Positions 29,880 to 46,880 of a stretch of DNA of 52,974 nucleotides are shown piece after piece (within the stretch, counting starts at the first letter, position 1; every line of letters begins with the position of its first letter). This DNA comes from a virus: the IMG/VR virus record IMGVR_UViG_3300032073_000043, positions 1 through 52,974 of that record; one strand, given 5' to 3'. The notes below the pieces were generated by a model. The model worked only from the letters and a program-made list of their open reading frames with translations. It did not search any database and had not been told where the DNA came from. Position numbers and translations under genes: made by a program.

Positions 29880-30154
29880 TATTTAGATCTTCTTTCTGCA
29901 AAACCACCAAAAGTAGACTTTTCCTCTTCCTTTTTAGGTTTATTATCTAACATGTCTTGCTCATCTTGTATTCTATTTAATATCTCAAAAGCATCAAATA
30001 TAGCTAGCTTTTTAGTTGCAGCCGCGTTTTTTAATCTATCAGCTGATATATCGTCGTCTGTTTCTACTATAGGCTCTTTTGCAACCTTTATTAATTCATC
30101 AACAGCTCTATGTCCAGCTTGGATTATATTCTTTTTCGTTTCCTTGATATTCAT
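29879..30154 (-). CDS. Terminase small-subunit candidate
   Basis: A 91-aa helical protein immediately upstream of TerL (one-base overlap). The middle, ADRLKNAAATKKLAIFDAFEILNRIQDEQ, is a pattern I associate with small proteins preceding TerL in Bacteroidetes phages. The C terminus is basic and disordered (STFGGFAERRSK). I choose the ATG at 30154 (MNIKETKKNI), since the longer start at 30199 overlaps the previous gene by 92 bases rather than 47. DNA-binding ability is not evident in the sequence, so TerS is inferred mainly from position. Confidence 0.55.
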   Translation of the reverse strand: MNIKETKKNIIQAGHRAVDELIKVAKEPIVETDDDISADRLKNAAATKKLAIFDAFEILNRIQDEQDMLDNKPKKEEEKSTFGGFAERRSK

Positions 30155-30692
30155 ATTTGATTGTAATAAATTTAGATAAAACCCTATATAATCTCTCACC
30201 GTTAATTACAAACTCGTATTCACTATTAGGTGTGAAACCTATTAAATCTCCTTCGTTTATATTTAAATGCTTGTTAGTATATTTAACAACGCCTATCAAT
30301 GGTTTTTCTTTATCGTCATATATATTGTCTGACTGTAAAGGTTTTACAAAGCAATAATCAGTTTGACTTGACCATTTACCTTTTTGTTTGTATAAAAATA
30401 TTTGATCTGTATTAACAAAATATTTATCTTCTTTAAAATAAGATCTGCTGTTTTTTTCTACACCTTGTTGATCGTGCCATCTTCTAAAAACATTGTGGTG
30501 TATAATAACAGTGTCACCTACTTTTATATCTGTTTTAACAATTTTAGGCAAAGAAACAACTATAGCTTCTCTGTTAACGTACTGATGACTAAATATCTCG
30601 GCGTTTAATATGAGCTCTTTATCACCTATTTTTTTTACGTTATTGTATCTTGATCCTTTTGGTTTAACTACAAAGTTAAATAATCCTTGCAT
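30108..30692 (-). CDS. Tandem GroES-like (Cpn10-fold) protein candidate
   Basis: A 194-aa all-beta protein that reads as two similar halves. Residues 6-103 contain VVKPKG, then TDIKVGDTVIIHHNVFRRW and FVNTDQIFLY. Residues 113-182 contain CFVKPLQ, GVVKYTN, NINEGDLIGFTPNSEYEFVINGERLYRV. Both copies follow the Cpn10 order (xxKPxx, VGDxVxxxx, xxxINGxxYxxVxxxxI). The sequence similarity to true GroES is weak, and the mobile loop is not obvious. It lies in the TerS/TerL operon, 14 kb from the real groES-groEL pair. A small structural beta protein is an alternative. Confidence 0.45.
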   Translation of the reverse strand: MQGLFNFVVKPKGSRYNNVKKIGDKELILNAEIFSHQYVNREAIVVSLPKIVKTDIKVGDTVIIHHNVFRRWHDQQGVEKNSRSYFKEDKYFVNTDQIFLYKQKGKWSSQTDYCFVKPLQSDNIYDDKEKPLIGVVKYTNKHLNINEGDLIGFTPNSEYEFVINGERLYRVLSKFITIKYEYQGNEKEYNPSWT

Positions 30693-31204: not shown

Positions 31205-32104
31205 TTACTTCTTTTTTGCTGGTGAAGATATGTACCAGTTTTTGTATCTATCTCTTTTTTCACACACGTAGCTAATATATTTATCAACTTTAGTTTTCCA
31301 GTCTTTATCTACGTTTGGATTTATTATACCAGACTTGTAACTAGAAAATGTCTTGTTTACGTATTCTACTATGTTTTTTTGATTGTGATAAAGGAAACTA
31401 TTTATGCAGTAGAATGAGCCTCTCTGTATATCGTTCCAAACATCCACAGGTTCTATATTTTTACCTAATACACCAGCAAACAAAGGGCTTTCACTTATAT
31501 GAGTTGAATAAACGCCTTTAGCTTTCTGCATGTAGTAGTACATGTCTACATTTTTAGGAAGAATATTCTCTTCACCAAAAAAGTCTTTTAACTCACCAAT
31601 TATTTGGTGTGTAGTTATAGGGTGTGGTTTGAATAAAACATTATTACCGTGGGTGTTTACAATGTGCTTTAATCTATTTAAGCAAACATTTTCTCTAAGT
31701 TTGTTAGAACCCGGTAAAATTATTAAATAGTCCTTAGGAGGAAATCTGTCCAATTCTTCTTTTCTGTATTTATACTTGTTAGCGTTGCTATCAACAACTT
31801 TTTTTACTAACCAAGAAGAATAGTCTAGCACTTCACTTTCGTTATCGTGCCAAGCGTCGATCATTTGTTCGTTACGCATTTTAAAATTTAAAGGTTGAAG
31901 GTAAAAATTACCTGCATACTCGGTATACGCCATTGTTTTAAAGTATGGCATTTCTTCTGCCATTACATCATAGCTAGTTTCTAAGCCATTTTCTTGGCAC
32001 TTTCTAATGACATATCCTTCAACTTGTTCTAAGTCATAAAGACTGTCAGCTTTTTTAAGAGGACCTATTCTTTTCTTAAGCTCCTGCTCGTTAAACATTT
32101 CCAT
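31205..32104 (-). CDS. Putative GT-B glycosyl/glycerophosphotransferase
   Basis: A 299-aa protein whose C-terminal half reads like the nucleotide-binding half of CDP-glycerol/sialyl or capsule-type GT-B transferases: YLIILPGSNKLREN (126-139), NNVLFKPHPITTHQI (KPHP at 159-162), and STHISESPLFAGVLGKNIEPVDVW (200-223). The Lys-Pro-His-Pro and the Ser-Thr-x-x-Ser-Glu-Ser motif are typical for activated-donor binding. The N-terminal half is helical and shows no signal peptide, so it acts in the cytoplasm. It lies directly downstream of the Thr/Ser-rich fibre, with a late-promoter-like element in front. The substrate is unknown, and modification of the fibre is a hypothesis. Confidence 0.5.
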   Translation of the reverse strand: MEMFNEQELKKRIGPLKKADSLYDLEQVEGYVIRKCQENGLETSYDVMAEEMPYFKTMAYTEYAGNFYLQPLNFKMRNEQMIDAWHDNESEVLDYSSWLVKKVVDSNANKYKYRKEELDRFPPKDYLIILPGSNKLRENVCLNRLKHIVNTHGNNVLFKPHPITTHQIIGELKDFFGEENILPKNVDMYYYMQKAKGVYSTHISESPLFAGVLGKNIEPVDVWNDIQRGSFYCINSFLYHNQKNIVEYVNKTFSSYKSGIINPNVDKDWKTKVDKYISYVCEKRDRYKNWYISSPAKKK

Positions 32105-32160: not shown

Positions 32161-34302
32161 CTACTCGTTATTATCTTGAAACGGATTAGTACCTAATTGC
32201 CCAAATTGATTAAAGTTAACATAGTTACCAGTGTTAGTTGTATACGTAGTCGTATACGTAGTTGTTGTATTAAAACCAGTGCTTGTAGCTGTAGACGTAT
32301 TAAAAACTGTTGACGTTGATGTGTTATAAACAGTAACGTGATTTGTATTAGTTGTAGTACTTGTGTTAAAAGTAGTAGTCGTGTTAAACGTAGTTACTGT
32401 AGCTGTAGTAGTGTTGTAAACAGTACTTGTCGATCTAGTTGTTGCTGTATTTGTACTAGTGTTATAAACTGTTGTTGTCGCTCTAGTTGTTGCTGTGTTT
32501 GTAGACGTGTTAAAAGCTGTTATAGTTATTGTTTGCGTTGTTGTAGATGTATTGTAAACAGTTGTATAAACAGTAGTCGTATCTCTTGCTGTACTTTTTA
32601 GAACTGTGTTTCTAGATGTACTAACAGTTGTGTTTCTAGATGTAGTAGTGCTAGTATTATAAGTTGTTGTATAAGTAGTGTTTGTACTAAATACAGTTGA
32701 TGTACTAGTATTAAACACAGTACTAGTTGCTCTACTTGTAGATACAACCGTTGTTGTACTAGTATTATAATGAGTTATTGTTATAGTACTAGTTGATCTA
32801 GTTGTATTTCTATACGTAGCGGCTTGAACATCAGTTAACCTCATTGTTTGTTGAGACGTAGTGTATACTGTATTAGTACTAGTATTAAACGTAGTTGTTG
32901 TGGATTTACTGGTATTAAAAGTTGTAGTCGTACTGTACGTAGTTAAAGTAGACGTATTATAAACTGTAGTAGTTGCTCTAGACGTTGATATTGTAGTTGC
33001 TCTACTAGTTAATGTAGCAGTACTAGTATTAAAAGTAGTACTTGTTGTGTATACCGTAGTTGTAGATCTAGATTCTATTGTAGCTCTACTAGTTGCAAAT
33101 GTAGTTACAGTTGATCTAGTGGTAGACACAGTAGTGGTTCTTTGTTCTGTTGTTACCGTGCTAGTATTAAAAGTGGTTGTAGTAGAGTATGCTGTTGTTG
33201 TAGCTCTTTGCTCTGTTGTTGATCTACTTGTAGCAAAAGTAGTCGTTGTCGAGAATACTGTAGTTGTGCTAGTGTTAAACACAGTTATAGTAGCTGTACT
33301 AGTGTTAAAAGCTGTGTTAGTAGTATATGTCGTAGTGGTAGACCTTGAGGTTGCTGTACTTCTAGTTGTAGTAAATGTTGTTGTAGTTGACTTACTAGTT
33401 ATAGTACTTGTGTTAAATGTTGTGCTAGTAGTGTATACTGTTACTGTACTTCTTTGCTCAATTGTAGCTCTTGATGTAGCAAAGGTAGTTGTAGTTGACT
33501 TAGTAGTTACAGTTGATGTATTGAAAGCCGTATTAGTAGTATATACCGTGGTTGTACTTCTAGATTCAATTGTAACTCTATCCGTAGCGAAAGTAGTAGT
33601 TGTAGCTCTAGACGTTAGCGTCGAAGTATTAAAAGCAGTTGTAGTCGTAAACGTCGTAGTAGTAGACCTACTTTCTATAGTGTTTCTGCTAGTAGCAAAA
33701 GTAGTAGTTGTAGCTCTAGTAGTATTAAATGTTGTTGTTGTTGTATACAGTGTAGTAGTACTAAACGCGGTAATTGTATTACGGCTAGTTGCTATTACTG
33801 TTGCTCTACTCGTTGATGTAGTTCTACTAGTAGCAAAAGTTGTTGTAGTAGCTCTAGATGTGGCAAACGTAGTTGTAGTAGACCTAGTAGTGTTAAATGT
33901 AGTTGTTGTATTAAATACAGTCGTGGTACTAGTATTAAATAATGTAGTTGTACTTTTACTAGTATTAAACGTAGTTAAAGTTGTGTAGGTAGTGGTAGTA
34001 GACCTACTTTCAGTTGTAGCTCTAGACGTATTAAAAGTAGTAGTCGTAGTATACGTAGTCGTAGTAGATCTACTTTCAGTCGTAGCTCTAGACGTATTAA
34101 ACGTCGTAGCTGTAGTGTATGTAGTAGTAGTATTTCTAGACTCAAGTGTGCTTCTACTTGTAGAAAAATAAGAAATATAAGTAGTGTTAAAAGACGTTGT
34201 AGTGTTTCTACTTTCAGCGGTGCTTCTTGACGTACCTCTACTCGTGTTTCTTATAGTAGATTGTGATGTGCTTCTTGATGTGCTTCTTGTAGTATTAGGC
34301 AT
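32161..34302 (-). CDS. Thr/Ser-rich repeat fibre protein B (713 aa)
   Basis: Apart from a short N-terminal leader and the last 25 residues, the protein is built of short units such as FNTSRATTESRS, TTTTYTTTTT, FATSRNTI and YNTSTATV. Thr and Ser make up most residues, with Asn/Arg/Ala at fixed places, aromatic Phe/Tyr about every 8-12 residues, almost no Asp, and no Cys, Trp or Gly. Units of 22 residues repeat at DNA level (66 nt). The C terminus is NYVNFNQFGQLGTNPFQDN. There is no signal peptide. It is probably a long thin tail fibre or beta-solenoid, paralogous to the 871-aa fibre upstream but lacking its S74 end. The repeats may be heavily modified. Confidence 0.7.
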   Translation of the reverse strand: MPNTTRSTSRSTSQSTIRNTSRGTSRSTAESRNTTTSFNTTYISYFSTSRSTLESRNTTTTYTTATTFNTSRATTESRSTTTTYTTTTTFNTSRATTESRSTTTTYTTLTTFNTSKSTTTLFNTSTTTVFNTTTTFNTTRSTTTTFATSRATTTTFATSRTTSTSRATVIATSRNTITAFSTTTLYTTTTTFNTTRATTTTFATSRNTIESRSTTTTFTTTTAFNTSTLTSRATTTTFATDRVTIESRSTTTVYTTNTAFNTSTVTTKSTTTTFATSRATIEQRSTVTVYTTSTTFNTSTITSKSTTTTFTTTRSTATSRSTTTTYTTNTAFNTSTATITVFNTSTTTVFSTTTTFATSRSTTEQRATTTAYSTTTTFNTSTVTTEQRTTTVSTTRSTVTTFATSRATIESRSTTTVYTTSTTFNTSTATLTSRATTISTSRATTTVYNTSTLTTYSTTTTFNTSKSTTTTFNTSTNTVYTTSQQTMRLTDVQAATYRNTTRSTSTITITHYNTSTTTVVSTSRATSTVFNTSTSTVFSTNTTYTTTYNTSTTTSRNTTVSTSRNTVLKSTARDTTTVYTTVYNTSTTTQTITITAFNTSTNTATTRATTTVYNTSTNTATTRSTSTVYNTTTATVTTFNTTTTFNTSTTTNTNHVTVYNTSTSTVFNTSTATSTGFNTTTTYTTTYTTNTGNYVNFNQFGQLGTNPFQDNNE
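34001..34132 (-). repeat. 66-nt tandem duplication in fibre B
   Basis: Blocks starting at 34001 and 34067 are almost the same (GACCTACTTTCAG / GATCTACTTTCAG and onward) with few, mainly synonymous changes. They encode the 22-residue unit [YF]T..TTFNTSRATTESRS. This is one of the clearer recent duplications in the repeat shaft. Confidence 0.7.
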
Positions 34303-34304
34303 AG

Positions 34305-34868
34305 TTAAGTTATTATATCGCCAGATATTTGTATTAGTAATTTACCATCTGTCTTTAAGTTATTAATATAATTATTTCTTAACGCTGTCTTATGATCGTC
34401 AGATACATCGTTTGGTTCTGCAAAAATATCTACCAATATTAAATCATATAGCTTTGTTGTTGAGTAAGTCCACTCGTCATGTGTTATTACATTTATATCA
34501 CTATGCATCCAGTTTACAATAGAAACTATCTCAGAGTCTTGTTCAACAACGTCCACACTTGTTGGTGATTTAGTATTTTTTACATATTCAGGAAAAGAAC
34601 CTAAACCAAGTCCTAATATTAAAACATCACCCCAAACTGCATTATCAAAAATACTGTTATCAAAACCACAACTATTACAATCACCTGCTTTTATTTTAGC
34701 AGTATACAAAGAGTTATAATATCTATGGTAAACATCAGATTTATATTTTAAATGTGACATCACAAATTGTGTTGTACCATCTTCTACAGAGGTTTTAGTT
34801 TCTTTTATTATTTCAAATTTAGTACCATCGTGGGTACTTATTAGGTTTTCGTTTATATATGCACTCAT
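34305..34868 (-). CDS. SAM-dependent methyltransferase, spermidine-synthase-like
   Basis: A 187-aa Rossmann-type protein. Motif I is GDVLILGLGLGS (GLGLG at 86-90), the acidic residue of motif II is in VDVVEQDSEI (Glu109) and motif IV-like is YDLILVDIFAEPND (146-147 VD). This layout matches the spermidine synthase/methyltransferase superfamily. The protein ends soon after GKLLIQISGD, so the last beta strand of the fold appears shortened. The gene lies between the two Thr/Ser-rich fibre genes and overlaps the upstream one by four bases. Methylation of the fibre, or of a small molecule, is inference. Confidence 0.65.
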   Translation of the reverse strand: MSAYINENLISTHDGTKFEIIKETKTSVEDGTTQFVMSHLKYKSDVYHRYYNSLYTAKIKAGDCNSCGFDNSIFDNAVWGDVLILGLGLGSFPEYVKNTKSPTSVDVVEQDSEIVSIVNWMHSDINVITHDEWTYSTTKLYDLILVDIFAEPNDVSDDHKTALRNNYINNLKTDGKLLIQISGDIIT

Positions 34869-37480
34869 GATTTAATTGTTTTAAATTCTACATCTAACAT
34901 ACTATAGTCAACCCACTTACTGTTTCTGTGGTTTAGTACAGCTCCATCAATATGTTCAACTTCATCAGCCATAACACCTTGCCATACACCAGCAAATTTA
35001 TCAGCATATATACCTTTTTTAAATTCAAAGCTATATATATTTATACCTTTATTAGATTTGCCTATTAACTTAATATGTTTTTTCAATTTTCTGTCTGAAG
35101 GAAAACCACCACCACCGCCACATGAGGTAGGAGCTCCCGCAACCTGACCACCACTGATTATTTTATATTTATGTGTTGGACTAAATGCAATAGCATCTTG
35201 AGCTCCATACCATGCTCCAGCCAATGCTGATGTACCAGCAGAGTTTGTATACACATAGCTATTTGCTTGGGGTAATCCACTAGAAACGTTTGTTCCATAA
35301 TATGTAGCTCCCATAAACGCATTACACGCACCATTAAAATTACTTGCAGCTGTTGAGCTAAAAGCCGTAACGCTAGCCGCTGTGTTAAACGTTGTTATAT
35401 ACGTTGTGTTAAATGTTGTTGTATATGTTGTAGCGTAAGTTGTGTTAAACGATGTTGTAGTATTGTAAGCTGTTGTTGTTGACTTGCTAGTTCCTCTAGT
35501 TGTTGATATACCAGTTGTAAACGTAGTTGTAGTGCTATAAGTTGTAGTTGTACTTCTACTTTCAGTTGTGTTTCTACTAGTGTTAAACGTCGTGGTAGTT
35601 GTATAAGTAGTCGTAGTAGATCTGCTCTCTGTTGTTGCTCTACTTGTATTAAATGTAGTTGTTGTCGTATATGTTGTCGTTGTACTCCTAGATTCAGTAG
35701 TGTTTCTTGAAGTAGCAAATGTAGTAGTTGTTGATCTACTAGTTGCTATTGTAGTTACCCTAGATGTTGATGTTGATCTAGATGTAGCAAACGTTGTAGT
35801 TGTTGATCTAGTAGTGTTAAACGTAGTCGTCGTGCTTCTACTAGTGTTAAACGTAGTAGATGTATTAAATACAGTTATAGTAGATGTGTTAAACGCGGTA
35901 GTTGTTGATCTACTTGTTGTTGTGCTTCTACTTTCAGCTGTTGATCTACTTGTAGCAAAAGTAGTTGTTGTAGTTGTACTAGTGTTAAATACTGTGTTTG
36001 TTGTGTATGTTGTAGTTGTAGATCTATTTGTTGTAGTTGTTCTAGACGTAGCAATAGTAGTTGTAAATATAGTAGTTGTTGATTTACTAGTATTAAACAC
36101 TGTGATAGTTGCATAAACTGTATTTGTTGTTCTACTCTCTGTGGTATTTTTTGATGTCGCAAATGTTGTTGTAAAAGCGGTAGTCGTAGTTTTAGTAGTA
36201 TTAAAAACAGTACTAGTGGAATATGCGGTTGTCGTACTTCTAGATTCTGTAGTGTTTCTACTAGTGGCAAATGTAGTTGTGTATACGGTTGTAGTAGTTC
36301 TAGATGTATTAAATACTGTCGTAGTAGCAAACACTGTAGTTGTACTTCGACTTTCAGTAGTATTTCTTGACGTTGCAAAAGTTGTCGTAGTTGATCTACT
36401 AGTTGATATAGTAGTAGCTCTACTTGTTGTAGTTGCTTTACTAGTGTTGAAAGTAGTAGTCGTAGTATAAACAGTTGTAGTAGACCTTTGCTCTATTGTT
36501 GCTCTAGACGTGTTAAAAGTTGTTGTCGTTGAATAAACTGTAGTAGTACTGGTGTTGAATGTTGTTGTTGTACTTTTAGTAGTATTAAAAACAGTAGTAG
36601 TAGAATACGCGGTAGTAGTGTTTCTTGATTCAGTAGTATTTCTGCTCGTTGCAAAAGTTGTTGTAGTACTAAATATAGTTGTTGTAGACGTATTAAATAC
36701 TGTAGTTGTACTTTTACTAGTGCTAACTGTTGTATTTCTACTTTCTAAAGTTGTTTTACTAGTAGCGAAAGTTGTTGTTGTGCTTCTGCTAGTGCTAATA
36801 GTTGTATTTCTATTAGTAGTTGTACTAGTGTTGTATATAGTAGCTGTTGATTTTAACGTATTTCCTAAAAACGTGTTGTATGTAGTTGTGTAAGTAGTAG
36901 TAGTGTTTCTAGCCGTATCTACAGTTGTAACAGTAGATGTATTAAAAGTAGTAGTAGTATTTCTACTAGTGCTAACAACTGTACTTCTTGATGTAGATGT
37001 GGTTTTAACCGTTACGGTAGACGTATTAAACGCTGTGTTAAAAGAAGTTAACGTACTAGTATTAAAAGTTGTAGTCGTGCTAGTATTAAATACAGTTATA
37101 GTAATTGTTGACGTTATTGTCGACGTATTGTAATTTGTAGTATAAACTGTAGTTGTATTTCTACTAGTTGCAATTGTAGTTGATGTTAAAAAAGTAGTAG
37201 TAGTATTTTTACTTGTTGAAACAACTGTTGATGTAGAAAATGTTGTTGTTGTAGATCTATTAGTAGATATAGTAGTGTTTGTACTTCTACTAGTAGCTGT
37301 AGCTCTAGAAGTGCTGTAAGCAGTAGTTGTAGACTTAACTGTTGTTGTACTAGTATTATAAGCTGTTGTTGTACTAGTGTTATACGTAGTAGTCGTACTC
37401 TTACTGGTTCCTGTAGATTTTGTTGTTGATCTACTGGTTGACTTACTGAAAAAATTAATTTTACTCCAGAGAAAGTTCAT
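34865..37480 (-). CDS. Thr/Ser-rich repeat tail fibre with S74 chaperone domain (871 aa)
   Basis: Residues 13-700 are Thr/Ser-dominated short units (RSTTTTFATS, TSRATTESRS, TTTYTTTTTFN) with regular aromatic residues and Arg or Asn spacing. Residues 700-795 form a different small domain (CNAFMGATYYG, VYTNSAGTSALAGAWYG), with a glycine-rich loop. The C terminus is an intramolecular chaperone of the peptidase S74 type: SDRKLKKHIKLIG, with Ser795 and Lys800 in the catalytic S-x4-K spacing, then IYSFEFK, GVMADEVEHIDGAVLNH. The S74 domain directs trimerisation and cleaves itself off in endosialidases and fibres. The protein should therefore be a trimeric tail fibre, very unusual in its shaft. Confidence 0.82.
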   Translation of the reverse strand: MNFLWSKINFFSKSTSRSTTKSTGTSKSTTTTYNTSTTTAYNTSTTTVKSTTTAYSTSRATATSRSTNTTISTNRSTTTTFSTSTVVSTSKNTTTTFLTSTTIATSRNTTTVYTTNYNTSTITSTITITVFNTSTTTTFNTSTLTSFNTAFNTSTVTVKTTSTSRSTVVSTSRNTTTTFNTSTVTTVDTARNTTTTYTTTYNTFLGNTLKSTATIYNTSTTTNRNTTISTSRSTTTTFATSKTTLESRNTTVSTSKSTTTVFNTSTTTIFSTTTTFATSRNTTESRNTTTAYSTTTVFNTTKSTTTTFNTSTTTVYSTTTTFNTSRATIEQRSTTTVYTTTTTFNTSKATTTSRATTISTSRSTTTTFATSRNTTESRSTTTVFATTTVFNTSRTTTTVYTTTFATSRNTTESRSTTTAYSTSTVFNTTKTTTTAFTTTFATSKNTTESRTTNTVYATITVFNTSKSTTTIFTTTIATSRTTTTNRSTTTTYTTNTVFNTSTTTTTTFATSRSTAESRSTTTSRSTTTAFNTSTITVFNTSTTFNTSRSTTTTFNTTRSTTTTFATSRSTSTSRVTTIATSRSTTTTFATSRNTTESRSTTTTYTTTTTFNTSRATTESRSTTTTYTTTTTFNTSRNTTESRSTTTTYSTTTTFTTGISTTRGTSKSTTTAYNTTTSFNTTYATTYTTTFNTTYITTFNTAASVTAFSSTAASNFNGACNAFMGATYYGTNVSSGLPQANSYVYTNSAGTSALAGAWYGAQDAIAFSPTHKYKIISGGQVAGAPTSCGGGGGFPSDRKLKKHIKLIGKSNKGINIYSFEFKKGIYADKFAGVWQGVMADEVEHIDGAVLNHRNSKWVDYSMLDVEFKTIKS

Positions 37481-37988: not shown

Positions 37989-40028
37989 TTAAGATGTTGG
38001 ATACGTTATACCTGTTGCAGTTGCAGCGTTTTCTTTACTGTGTATTTGAACAGTTACATCATACTCAGGAACTTTTGCAAATTGCACTAAAATGTGGTTA
38101 TCACTGTCTGTGCCACTAGTATCTGAGTTTGTAGTCCAATCAATTATAACTTGTCGATAATCTGCAGCAGCACCTTTATATTGAGCCGTTACCTGTAGTG
38201 CTTTAGTACCTAAATCATGTTGTATTACAGCGTTTAGTTGAGTAGCATGTAGAGATGAAACATCAATAACTTGAACAACATTTTTAGCTTGAGCTAATCT
38301 AAGAGGTGTTACAACTTTTGTATTATCAGAACCTGTTTGTACCTCAGCAACTGAAGCTACAGATCTTTGAGTGTTGTTTGTTGTTATTGAACCACCTAAT
38401 GAAATAGCAGAACCATCTATTGTTATAGCAGAGTTTGCTAATTTAGCATTTTCAATTGTAGCATCTGCAATGTGAGCGTTGTCAATAGAACCATCTGTAT
38501 AATGTTCTGAATCAATTGCGTTATCAGCAATTTTAGCTTTAGTTACAGCATCAGCGTTTATTTTAGCAGTAGTTACCGCGTTAGAATCAATTTGTCCCGC
38601 AGCTACAGTGCCTAATAATGCTAATGCACCTAAAGCTGTTCCGTTAAGAGTTATTGCGTCAGCTTCTAAAGTTCCATCAACATCAACGTTTCCAGATATA
38701 TCTAATGAAGCAGCGATTAACTGATCAACTTGTAAGTCTTCATAACTTGATCCAAGTTTTAATTCAAACTTAGGTCCTGTTGTACTGTATGTAAATGTTG
38801 CATCATCTCCAGAACCACCTTCAAGTGTAATACCAGCGCCGTTAACAACAGCTGCTGTACTGTTTCCACTATCAAGTACTATATTGTGATCGTTAAGACT
38901 TACTGTGGTTGAATTTACAGTTGTAGTAGTACCTGAAACTTGTAAGTTACCAGTTATTACTATTGTATCACCACTATCAGTACCTATAACTATATTTTCA
39001 TCAGCAGCACCACTTGCAGATTGTAACGCAGCTAATCTGGTTAATAAGTTAGCGTTAGATACATCTACGTCACTATTAGTTGTATAAGATGGAGTACCAA
39101 ATGTACCATCATGTTTTAAGAACTCTCCGTTTGATCCAGCAGCTGGTACAAAGTTATTATTACCAGTTCCAACTAAAGTTCTTATTTCTGCAGCTGTTTG
39201 ATCTGTAGTTGCACCATCTTCATAACCGAGTGCCGTTGCCATTTCAGCTTGTGTTATTCCACTCTTTAAAGTTGGCGTTCCACTATTGTCATAAATAGCA
39301 GCATTACCAGAATCACCAGAAACATTTACTTGTGCACCATCAGCTACATTAAGTATTGCTAATGCTTCAGCTTTTGATAAAGCTTTTGGAACACCAGCGC
39401 TAGCAGCAGTTCTACCTATGAAAGTATCTGTAGCTATATTAGCTAGCTTAGCCATTGTTATATTAGCATCAGCTATTTTAGCTGTAGTAACATTTGCATC
39501 AACTATACTAGCTGTAACAACAGCGTCTGAAGCTAAGTTATCAGCATCAACCGCATCATCAGCAAGCATTGAGTGAACAATATCACCAGCTCCAATTACA
39601 AAGTCTAAGTTGCCATTTGTATCGTCATAAGATACAGATATACCAGTTTCAGTACCATCAAGCATTCCACCAACATAGTCTTCAACTTGTTCTTGTGTTA
39701 ATGTGCTGTTAGCTGATATTGTAACTACACCACCAACTTCTGCTAGTGTAACGCCAGATCCTTTTTTAAGAACTAAGTTTTCTGATGTTTCTAATGTGTT
39801 GTTTACAGATCCATCACCGTTAGTGTCTATCTGCACTGTTCTAGTACCACCGCCAGAAGCTAGTGATAACCATGCAGATCCATTATACACTTTTACCGTG
39901 CCTGAATCATAAATAATTTGCCCCGTACCAGGCGACGTGACATCACCAGAACCAGTTGTGTGGAGCAGTACGTTTTGAATTTCGGCTGCATTGCCGAAGT
40001 CCATGTGATTTAAAATAGGTATTGCCAT
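37989..40028 (-). CDS. Tail fibre with repeated AIADANIxxAKL motifs (679 aa)
   Basis: The N terminus MAIPILNHMDFGNAAEIQNVLLHTT is followed by beta-rich segments and repeats of the type ADANITMAKLANIA, IADATIENAKLANSAI and ADAVTKAKIADNAID (two clusters, about residues 150-220 and 480-560). The C terminus is a beta domain with LRLAQAKNVVQVIDVSSLHA, VIQHDLGTKALQVTAQYKGAAADYRQVIIDWT. This is the common marine phage fibre style. The gene is followed by a terminator. No S74 domain is present. Confidence 0.75.
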   Translation of the reverse strand: MAIPILNHMDFGNAAEIQNVLLHTTGSGDVTSPGTGQIIYDSGTVKVYNGSAWLSLASGGGTRTVQIDTNGDGSVNNTLETSENLVLKKGSGVTLAEVGGVVTISANSTLTQEQVEDYVGGMLDGTETGISVSYDDTNGNLDFVIGAGDIVHSMLADDAVDADNLASDAVVTASIVDANVTTAKIADANITMAKLANIATDTFIGRTAASAGVPKALSKAEALAILNVADGAQVNVSGDSGNAAIYDNSGTPTLKSGITQAEMATALGYEDGATTDQTAAEIRTLVGTGNNNFVPAAGSNGEFLKHDGTFGTPSYTTNSDVDVSNANLLTRLAALQSASGAADENIVIGTDSGDTIVITGNLQVSGTTTTVNSTTVSLNDHNIVLDSGNSTAAVVNGAGITLEGGSGDDATFTYSTTGPKFELKLGSSYEDLQVDQLIAASLDISGNVDVDGTLEADAITLNGTALGALALLGTVAAGQIDSNAVTTAKINADAVTKAKIADNAIDSEHYTDGSIDNAHIADATIENAKLANSAITIDGSAISLGGSITTNNTQRSVASVAEVQTGSDNTKVVTPLRLAQAKNVVQVIDVSSLHATQLNAVIQHDLGTKALQVTAQYKGAAADYRQVIIDWTTNSDTSGTDSDNHILVQFAKVPEYDVTVQIHSKENAATATGITYPTS

Positions 40029-45068: not shown

Positions 45069-45322
45069 TCTACTAAAACTACATCTTGTATTTTTATAAC
45101 TTGCAATAGTTTATTTTTCCAGTGTATACCGTGTCCAGCGTGTTTATCATAGTATATAATGCTATTGTCATTAATACCCTCGACTAAGTTACCTTTTGTT
45201 ACAACTTTTGCTTTTATATACCTATTGTCACTGTCTGTTTTTTCTGTTAAAATTAAACCAGCAACTTTCTTAGGCTTTTCTTTGATCTTTTCTACTACTA
45301 TGTAATAATTAACTGCTTGCAT
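45065..45322 (-). CDS. groES: GroES co-chaperonin (85 aa)
   Basis: A Cpn10-family protein: MQAVNYYIVVEKIKEKPKKVAGLILTEKTD, with the hydrophobic tripeptide LIL of the mobile loop, then AKVVTKG, DNSIIYYDKHAGHGI and the C-terminal IQDVVLVE. It is short (85 against about 95-97 aa). It follows groEL, with 14 bases of overlap, the reverse order to bacterial groES-groEL operons. With groEL the phage therefore has a complete chaperonin pair of its own. Confidence 0.88.
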   Translation of the reverse strand: MQAVNYYIVVEKIKEKPKKVAGLILTEKTDSDNRYIKAKVVTKGNLVEGINDNSIIYYDKHAGHGIHWKNKLLQVIKIQDVVLVE

Positions 45323-46880
45323 TTGGTATTCTTATATTAGAGATTACACAATCTGCAGAAATTATAGTAGAAACAACACTAACTGCATTCTTTAGTGCTG
45401 TCTTTGTGACTAAGACTGGGTCTATTATGCCACTTTTTATCATATCAACCTCTTTTCCGGTTGTTACATCTATACCATACCCTATTTTTGTAGGAGTTTT
45501 TATTAAAACTATACCAGCATTGTCTAAAATAGTTTTAAAAGGTGCTAAAATAGCAGTTTTTAGTATTTTTTCGCCAGTATTATCTGGTTTTATTGAATTA
45601 GCAGCGTTTAATAGTGCTATTCCACCTCCAGAAACAATACCTTCTTGTAATGCAGCCTTAACTGCATAGATAGCATCTTCAACTCTATCCTTTTTTTCCT
45701 TTAATTCTACTTTAGAATCAGCACCTACGTTAATTATACCAACAGAACCGCTTAACATAGCTAATCTGTCTTGTAATCTTTTCTTAAAATAAGGTTTTTT
45801 CTCTTTTTTAATCTTATTTTTAACATCTTTTATCCTTTCTTCGAGGTCTACCGCTTTTAAACCAGTTGTAAGGACTGTAGTTCTGTTATCTGTGACAGAT
45901 TTTACTACTTCACCCAAACAATCTGGCTGGATCAGATCTAAATCGTCTCCAAGCTCTTCGTTCATAACTTGCGCTCCAGTTAAAAATGCTAAATCTTCTA
46001 TTGTATCTGCTTTACTAGGGCCAAAACCAGGTGGATCTATGATATTAACATTGATATTACCCTTAACTTTGTTCATTAGTAACGCTGATTTGACCTGTTG
46101 GTCAACCTCTGCTATAATAAGTAGAGGTTTTCTTTTCTTTATAACATATTCTAATACACTTTGTATCTTTCTTATGTTAGGTATAGGTGATGAAACTATT
46201 AAAACCGCTGGGTTTTCTAGTTCTGACACCATTTTATCTTTATTTGTAGCAAAGTGAGGTGATGTTAAGCTACTATCGAACTGTACACCCTCTACTATCT
46301 CTGTGTAGGTTTCATCGCTTTCGCTCTCCTCCATCAGCACTACACCGTCCTTACCTACTTTTTTGTAAGCTTCTGCAATAATTTGCCCCAAAGCTTTGTC
46401 ATTGTTGCAGCTAATTGCTGAAACGCTTGTAAGCTGATCGCCAGATACTGCTTTGCTGTGTTCTGAAAGGTATTCCACAACCTTTTTATATCCTGTTTCA
46501 ATGCCATGTTTTATATCTCTTATACTATCGTTAGACTTTACTTGTGAGTTGACCTCTTTTAATAGTGATTCAGCAAGGACGATAGCCGTAGTGGTACCGT
46601 CACCTGCTTCCTTCACTGTGTTTTTCGATGCTTCTTTAATAAGTGTTGCACCTATATTTTCTACAGGATCCATTAGTACTACTGAATCAGCTACAGTTAC
46701 ACCATCTTTAGTTATAACTGGTCTGCCTAATCCATCTTCGTATACTACGCACTTACCTGAGGCACCTAGAGTAGATTTAACAGCTTTCGCTAGTTTATCT
46801 ACACCATTCATAATTTTTGATTTAGCTTCATCACCAAAGTAAAGATCTTTGACAATTTCGCTAGGTTGATTAAATTCCAT
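45309..46880 (-). CDS. groEL: GroEL-like chaperonin (523 aa)
   Basis: The family is plain: GVDKLAKAVKSTLGASGKCVVYEDG, ITKDGVTVADSVVLMDPVENIGATLIKEAS, GDGTTTA (Asp94), and RVEDAIYAVKAALQEGIVSGGGIALL with the catalytic Asp of the EDA motif. ATPase and fold residues are retained. The length is about 25 residues less than E. coli GroEL, and the C-terminal Gly-Gly-Met tail is missing (ends IRIPNASS). It is early in the leftward block, so it is likely made before or with virion proteins and helps fold large capsid, tail and fibre proteins. Confidence 0.95.
   Translation of the reverse strand: MEFNQPSEIVKDLYFGDEAKSKIMNGVDKLAKAVKSTLGASGKCVVYEDGLGRPVITKDGVTVADSVVLMDPVENIGATLIKEASKNTVKEAGDGTTTAIVLAESLLKEVNSQVKSNDSIRDIKHGIETGYKKVVEYLSEHSKAVSGDQLTSVSAISCNNDKALGQIIAEAYKKVGKDGVVLMEESESDETYTEIVEGVQFDSSLTSPHFATNKDKMVSELENPAVLIVSSPIPNIRKIQSVLEYVIKKRKPLLIIAEVDQQVKSALLMNKVKGNINVNIIDPPGFGPSKADTIEDLAFLTGAQVMNEELGDDLDLIQPDCLGEVVKSVTDNRTTVLTTGLKAVDLEERIKDVKNKIKKEKKPYFKKRLQDRLAMLSGSVGIINVGADSKVELKEKKDRVEDAIYAVKAALQEGIVSGGGIALLNAANSIKPDNTGEKILKTAILAPFKTILDNAGIVLIKTPTKIGYGIDVTTGKEVDMIKSGIIDPVLVTKTALKNAVSVVSTIISADCVISNIRIPNASS

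Follow-up and report, generated by a model that had tools for sequence, protein, structure and literature searches.

Two neighbouring threonine-rich phage genes appear to encode the antiparallel strands of a single tail-fibre shaft

Two threonine-rich genes of an IMG/VR virus (record IMGVR_UViG_3300032073_000043), here called A and B, very probably build a single tail-fibre shaft between them, each supplying one of two antiparallel strands that would be joined as a beta zipper by a cation-pi pairing code. The window, meaning the whole 52,974-nucleotide stretch that was analysed, represents a genome of podovirus type, and its terminase comes nearest to those of a spring-water podovirus and of Flavobacterium and Cellulophaga phages. 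That A and B are strands of the same shaft follows from the equal length of their shafts together with an antiparallel complementarity between them. The pairing and its register are strongly supported by the sequences themselves, and the beta geometry, the three-fold symmetry and the virion location are predicted features of the zipper. We know of no natural protein pair in which partner and register are set by antiparallel residue complementarity over hundreds of residues, and a full-text search of open-access PMC papers found no description of pairing of the A/B type.

Both genes lie on the minus strand, where the initial annotation had correctly placed an 871 amino acid ORF (A, 34865-37480) and a 713 amino acid ORF (B, 32161-34302). 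Residues 1-703 of A (35372..37480), including the N-terminal MNFLWSKINFF, form a shaft strand that is delimited by its pairing with residues 703-1 of B and by a two-residue alternation. It is followed by a globular, putatively receptor-binding tip domain (residues 704-794, 35099..35371) and by an S74-type intramolecular chaperone that ends with the stop codon (residues 795-871, 34865..35098). The shaft strand of B (residues 1-703, 32194..34302) is complementary to that of A and runs in the opposite direction to it, ending in a GQLGTNPF-type tail and the stop codon (residues 704-713, 32161..32193). Tails of the form FGQLGxxPF close the B C-terminus in several loci, at the end of the zipper where A has its N-terminus, and A proteins share a conserved N-terminal motif resembling MRWLWNRIDFW. 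Between the two genes lies a methyltransferase-like protein of 187 amino acids (34305..34868, minus strand), and directly downstream of B, also on the minus strand, lies a companion protein of 299 amino acids (phrog_26179, 31205..32104). Searching IMG/VR with A gave 34 loci, most of which, where sufficiently long, show the order A, an ORF of 182-189 amino acids, B and companion. Upstream of A, the window holds another tail-fibre-like protein of 679 amino acids (37989-40028) that matches phrog_892.

The composition of both chains is as lopsided as had been noted, with 38% Thr and 14% Ser in A, 45% Thr and 13% Ser in B, a sum of about 55% for the two residues, and only about 1.5% Glu in either protein. 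The regular placing of Phe and Tyr that the initial annotation described turned out to be stricter than it claimed, since the spacings from aromatic to aromatic and from Arg/Lys to Arg/Lys are nearly always even (6, 16, 10, 4, 8, 14, 22 and 24 residues). A two-phase model exceeds a model of composition alone by 203 and 224 nats, whereas shuffled sequences gain about 12 at most, and the alternation slips its phase once in 220-670 residues. One phase forms a big face with 56-61% Thr together with Phe, Tyr, Arg, Lys and Glu; the other forms a small face of Ser, Thr, Asn, Ala and Val. Pooling 44 related proteins shows Arg to be some 300 times commoner in one phase than in the other. A two-residue alternation is the side-chain pattern of an extended beta strand, which is the geometry that the sequences would predict for these chains. 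Apart from these two proteins, long Val/Leu-rich ORFs occur on the plus strand antisense to A and B (33047-33988 and others); these are shadow ORFs of Thr codons and not genes.

When A is compared residue by residue with the reversed B, mutual information peaks at 278-316 over a background of about 80 and does so at one register. Parallel pairing was rejected, as it produced no such peak. Under leave-one-out scoring, the proper register was recovered in all 16 loci scored; matched A and B proteins scored 101-235, mismatched loci had a median of 37 with high values only for relatives, and dipeptide-shuffled B scored at most 19. In the window, the register is i+j=702 (0-based) and gapless, pairing A 1-703 with B 703-1 and thereby taking in all 703 shaft residues, with a score of 245 and a runner-up at 53. 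At this ungapped register 92 Arg/Lys residues face Phe or Tyr (12.7±3.1 in parity-preserving permutations, with a maximum of 27 in 20,000), the registers two residues to either side yield 1 such pair each, and all 20 of the Glu residues face Thr. Allowing two one-residue bulges raises the matching of Arg/Lys to aromatics to 100/104, a figure that comes from a score rewarding such pairs, while the ungapped figures are independent of gaps; gapped matching in other loci is 86-99%. On the pooled big face, Arg stands opposite Thr 2 times where 524 are expected, Arg opposite Arg 0 times versus 35, and Phe opposite Phe once versus 64. The small face contributes little to the pairing signal (0.095 versus 0.577 nats of information), and no volume complementarity was seen on it.

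The lengths of the two proteins are locked together. Across 18 loci, in which B ranges from 439 to 1191 amino acids, the length of A follows that of B with r=0.9993 and a slope of 1.013, and A has a constant surplus of 144-171 amino acids. This surplus of about 150 is the size of the C-terminal head of A with its S74 domain and is explained by it, so that the shafts in these 18 loci are equal in length once the head is removed. Consistent with this, in L116, where A has neither head nor chaperone, A and B measure 722 and 717 amino acids, and in L119, which has no S74 domain, the difference is 94. The initial annotation had pictured two separate fibres of different length and had overlooked the complementarity of the chains; equal and complementary antiparallel shafts do not support its picture.

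Since side chains of A and B would recognize each other along the whole length, an insertion or deletion in one gene would have to be mirrored in the other. Relative to L019, the locus L020 has lost 68 amino acids at A126-193 and 68 at B304-371, and the mates predicted from the register of L019 are B303-370. Between L008 and L009, five of five A/B indels are mirrored. Other pairs of loci are less clean in this respect because their repeats leave the alignments ambiguous.

Further evidence comes from single-chain relatives, which were left out of the derivation of the pairing code. Each is complementary to itself in an ungapped register, with a non-repeat tip between its halves: residues 7-438 of L029 pair with 897-466 (67/67 Arg/Lys matched), residues 7-346 of L047 with 709-370 (52/52), and residues 64-494 of L039 with 1043-613 (45/46). 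An AlphaFold2 (AF2) model of the L047 chain, built from 6 sequences, had a pLDDT of 27 and was uninformative. Using the companion protein as bait retrieved 315 and 179 relatives and, with them, new two-gene zippers, for example of 417/404, 457/444, 576/577, 750/753 and 366/171 amino acids, and single chains, one of them 1297 amino acids long with 49/51 residues matched, all in keeping with the pairing code. The Arg/Lys matching in new loci was 61/61 for L080, 74/74 for L116, 46/48 for L145, 53/57 for L162 and 49/51 for L172. For 14 of the second set, no Thr-rich ORF was found nearby, in some cases because the contig is cut. Taken together, it is quite probable that these proteins represent a duplex of chains 116-1172 residues long that are matched to each other by a pairing code, a duplex which occurs in two-gene or giant-hairpin form in unrelated tailed phages and usually has a glycosyltransferase-like companion. 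In cultured T7-like Caulobacter phages, a Thr-rich protein of 215-217 amino acids lies upstream of a companion homolog. At the best register, 10 of 13 basic residues are paired in gp41 of phage Lullwater (L051 8327-8974) and 8 of 11 in gp46 of phage BL198 (L052 8300-8953), both annotated as hypothetical and suggestive of a short form of the zipper; Quill gp41 gave no clear register. Family scans with whole A and B, PDB sequence searches with A and the A head, and tblastn of phage records with A, the A head and the 187-residue protein (low-complexity masking on) found no match, and a genome-contig scan with B found no confirmed relative.

The initial annotation had assigned a receptor-like head and an S74 chaperone with Ser795 and Lys800 to A only, and the assignment holds. 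The motif SDRKLKK begins at residue 795 of A with the Ser/Lys dyad five residues apart; B has no such domain. On the A protein of the window alone, PF13884 scores 18.7 bits, below its cut-off of 22, and it passes the cut-off in four homologs (L008, L009, L017 and L033). BFVD matches of the A C-terminus are to intramolecular chaperone auto-processing domains. The head is non-repetitive and conserved among homologs, and in an AF2 model of A 602-871 the head and S74 domain had pLDDT values mostly of 70-86 (in the head chiefly 72-86 as far as residue 780 or so) and the shaft part was below 40. Comparison of this model with PDB structures gave only Z scores below 3.4. The N-terminus of the single-chain L039 matches PHROG tail-fibre and virion proteins, which together with the S74 domain argues for a fibre identity of A and B. 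Elsewhere in the family, the A chains of L178 (902-2608), L180 (3166-4263), L161 and L201 finish with a sequence like DVFYANGILTHN that resembles the terminal part of a Hint/intein-type autoprocessing domain replacing S74; Pfam gave no confirmation of it for L178 and L180.

From these observations an assembly may be proposed. Each chain, about 700 residues long, would be extended in the manner of a beta strand, its side chains alternating between the big and the small face, and on the big face Arg/Lys would stand opposite Phe/Tyr in cation-pi pairs, Glu opposite Thr and Thr opposite Thr. Since this code would fix both partner and register, the N-terminus of A and the C-terminus of B should be proximal, and the N-terminus of B and the head of A distal. 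Fibres with an S74 domain whose structures are known form trimers, and for this reason three A and three B strands are envisaged; these would close into a six-stranded needle, as the up-tip-down topology of the T4 gp37 stem suggests, with the small residues inside and the Thr, aromatic and basic residues outside. At 0.30-0.34 nm for each of 702 steps, the fibre of the window would measure an estimated 210-240 nm. Nucleation may occur at the C-terminus of A, trimerized by S74, with B zipping on from its own N-terminus, and the gene order, in which A comes first and the N-terminus of B meets the C-terminus of A, suits nucleation at that end. The head of A would then bind the receptor.

The stoichiometry and symmetry of this assembly are predictions, and an antiparallel zipper assembled otherwise, as one A:B ribbon, as two ribbons face to face or with a different copy number, is a possibility to be taken seriously, though we think it the less probable one. 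The single register seen would not be expected of a sheared closed barrel, and three two-gene loci (L116, L145 and L146) have no S74 head. On the other hand, a closed tube with zero shear gives one register too: the same B residue would flank each A residue on both sides, in keeping with the single pairs counted two residues to either side of the register. The trimeric state of known S74 fibres also speaks against these arrangements, and a bare two-stranded ribbon of 700 residues is unlikely to be stable. In-sheet neighbours and strands facing each other across two layers look alike in sequence.

The remaining explanations dispense with the A:B zipper altogether. Two genes, one of them with an S74 head, could encode two independent homotrimeric fibres that need an equal reach by coincidence. 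It is very improbable that they do, as equal reach leaves unexplained the complementarity in reverse order, the partner specificity of each locus, the mirrored indels and the self-complementary fusions among relatives; nor does either chain of the window pair with itself in a comparable register (AxA 39 and BxB 38 versus 245 for A:B). Just as improbable is a large beta-solenoid within each chain, monomeric or trimeric. Although alternating Thr-rich sequence recalls the TxT faces of such folds, the only strict period is 2, the aromatic spacings have only that factor in common, leaving no sign of a constant coil, and the complementarity is between chains with no fixed offset within one. The beta-solenoid suggested at the outset is not supported as one with a fixed coil, and the accompanying suggestion of a mucin-like chain is disfavoured. 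A disordered, heavily glycosylated chain would suit a Thr and Ser content of over half, an ever-adjoining protein with glycosyltransferase-like motifs and a methyltransferase-like protein between A and B, but disorder requires neither strict alternation nor one-to-one pairing, the shafts of A and B together hold 1 Pro in 1406 residues, and we regard such a chain as improbable; a putative modification of a folded zipper would be compatible with the same neighbours. Finally, nucleic acids typically show antiparallel complementarity, and the protein pattern might be a by-product of complementarity between the genes. This was rejected as extremely improbable: with the genes aligned by the register of their proteins, base complementarity amounts to 0.347 over a background of 0.334±0.012 (rank 92), and Arg-Tyr and Thr-Thr pairs do not have complementary codons.

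Returning to the A:B zipper, its closest likeness in topology is the D11 needle of T4 gp37 (PDB 2XGF), a thin fibre tip of six antiparallel strands, as both have two antiparallel arms around a distal tip, here by sequence complementarity. In D11 the chain runs up through residues 882-931, forms an inserted tip at 932-959 and returns through 960-1009, as a trimer (PMC6957217). Its arms are thus about 50 residues long, compared with 116-1172 in the zipper family, and it contains 7 HxH iron motifs and many glycines, whereas the shafts of A and B contain no HxH. Unlike gp37, the zipper arms carry an Arg/Lys-aromatic code and are often split over two genes; scoring D11 with the zipper pairing matrix found no register. 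The zipper may therefore work like the gp37 needle without belonging to the gp37-type needles, since the HxH motifs and glycines are absent and the pairing code is silent on gp37. The Ser795/Lys800 S74 end of A resembles that of endosialidase-type (Peptidase S74) tail fibres. Known shafts chaperoned by S74 are triple beta-helices or coiled coils encoded by a single gene, unlike a complementary shaft from two genes in which B has no S74. An extended, beta-rich, trimeric shaft, as predicted here, would also recall the intertwined beta-helix of T4 gp5/VgrG and the triple beta-spiral of adenovirus. The former is built of VxGxxxxx octapeptides and the latter of 15-residue repeats with a turn glycine or proline; A and B have a two-residue period only, no VxG and no aromatic spacing fixed at 8. 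With no collagen-like G-X-Y runs in the shafts either, the initial annotation was right to set them apart from collagen-like, coiled-coil and ordinary beta-helix fibres. In using a simple residue code to set partner and register, A and B are reminiscent of heterodimeric leucine zippers, but those are helical and short, and here extended antiparallel strands would be joined by aromatic-cation pairs over hundreds of residues.

Turning to the neighbouring genes, the companion lies directly 3' of B, or of the hairpin gene where there is a single chain, in 29 of 29 examined loci, which span different phage types, and its homolog likewise follows the Thr-rich gene in the cultured Caulobacter T7-like phages; a 299 amino acid companion follows B in 23 loci. 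Its motifs (LPGSNK, FKPHP, SES and LGK) suggest a GT-B glycosyltransferase and, with it, a putative enzymatic role. The companion is likely to be a glycosyltransferase or a fibre assembly factor; its assignment to a known glycosyltransferase was rejected, as it matched nothing in Pfam, the PDB or NCBIfam. The ORF of 182-189 amino acids sits between A and B in all 20 two-gene loci, and its representative in the window matches the methyltransferase family phrog_15480 (E 1e-4) and a polyamine aminopropyltransferase profile (E 6e-6, far under the profile cut-off). Both proteins could be modifiers of the Thr-rich surface. The single-chain loci have a different methyltransferase, located a few genes 3' of the fibre gene. 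In the window, a phage-borne GroEL (phrog_5725) and a GroES-annotated protein (phrog_13932) are found at 45309-46880 and 30108-30692.

If the zipper is real, phages would possess a fibre whose length can be tuned through a simple code, from an estimated 35 nm or so to 400 nm, and mirrored indels would explain how host-range fibres are lengthened or shortened. It would also constitute a designable antiparallel protein duplex, and the zipper is open to testing now through its short natural forms in Caulobacter phages that are in culture. The very long zippers of L033 and L038 contain recurring bulge islands about every 100 residues, TFIGNSISTLITAFN in A and DTLSTSQILRTT in B, which carry register steps of one or two residues and are perhaps hinges.
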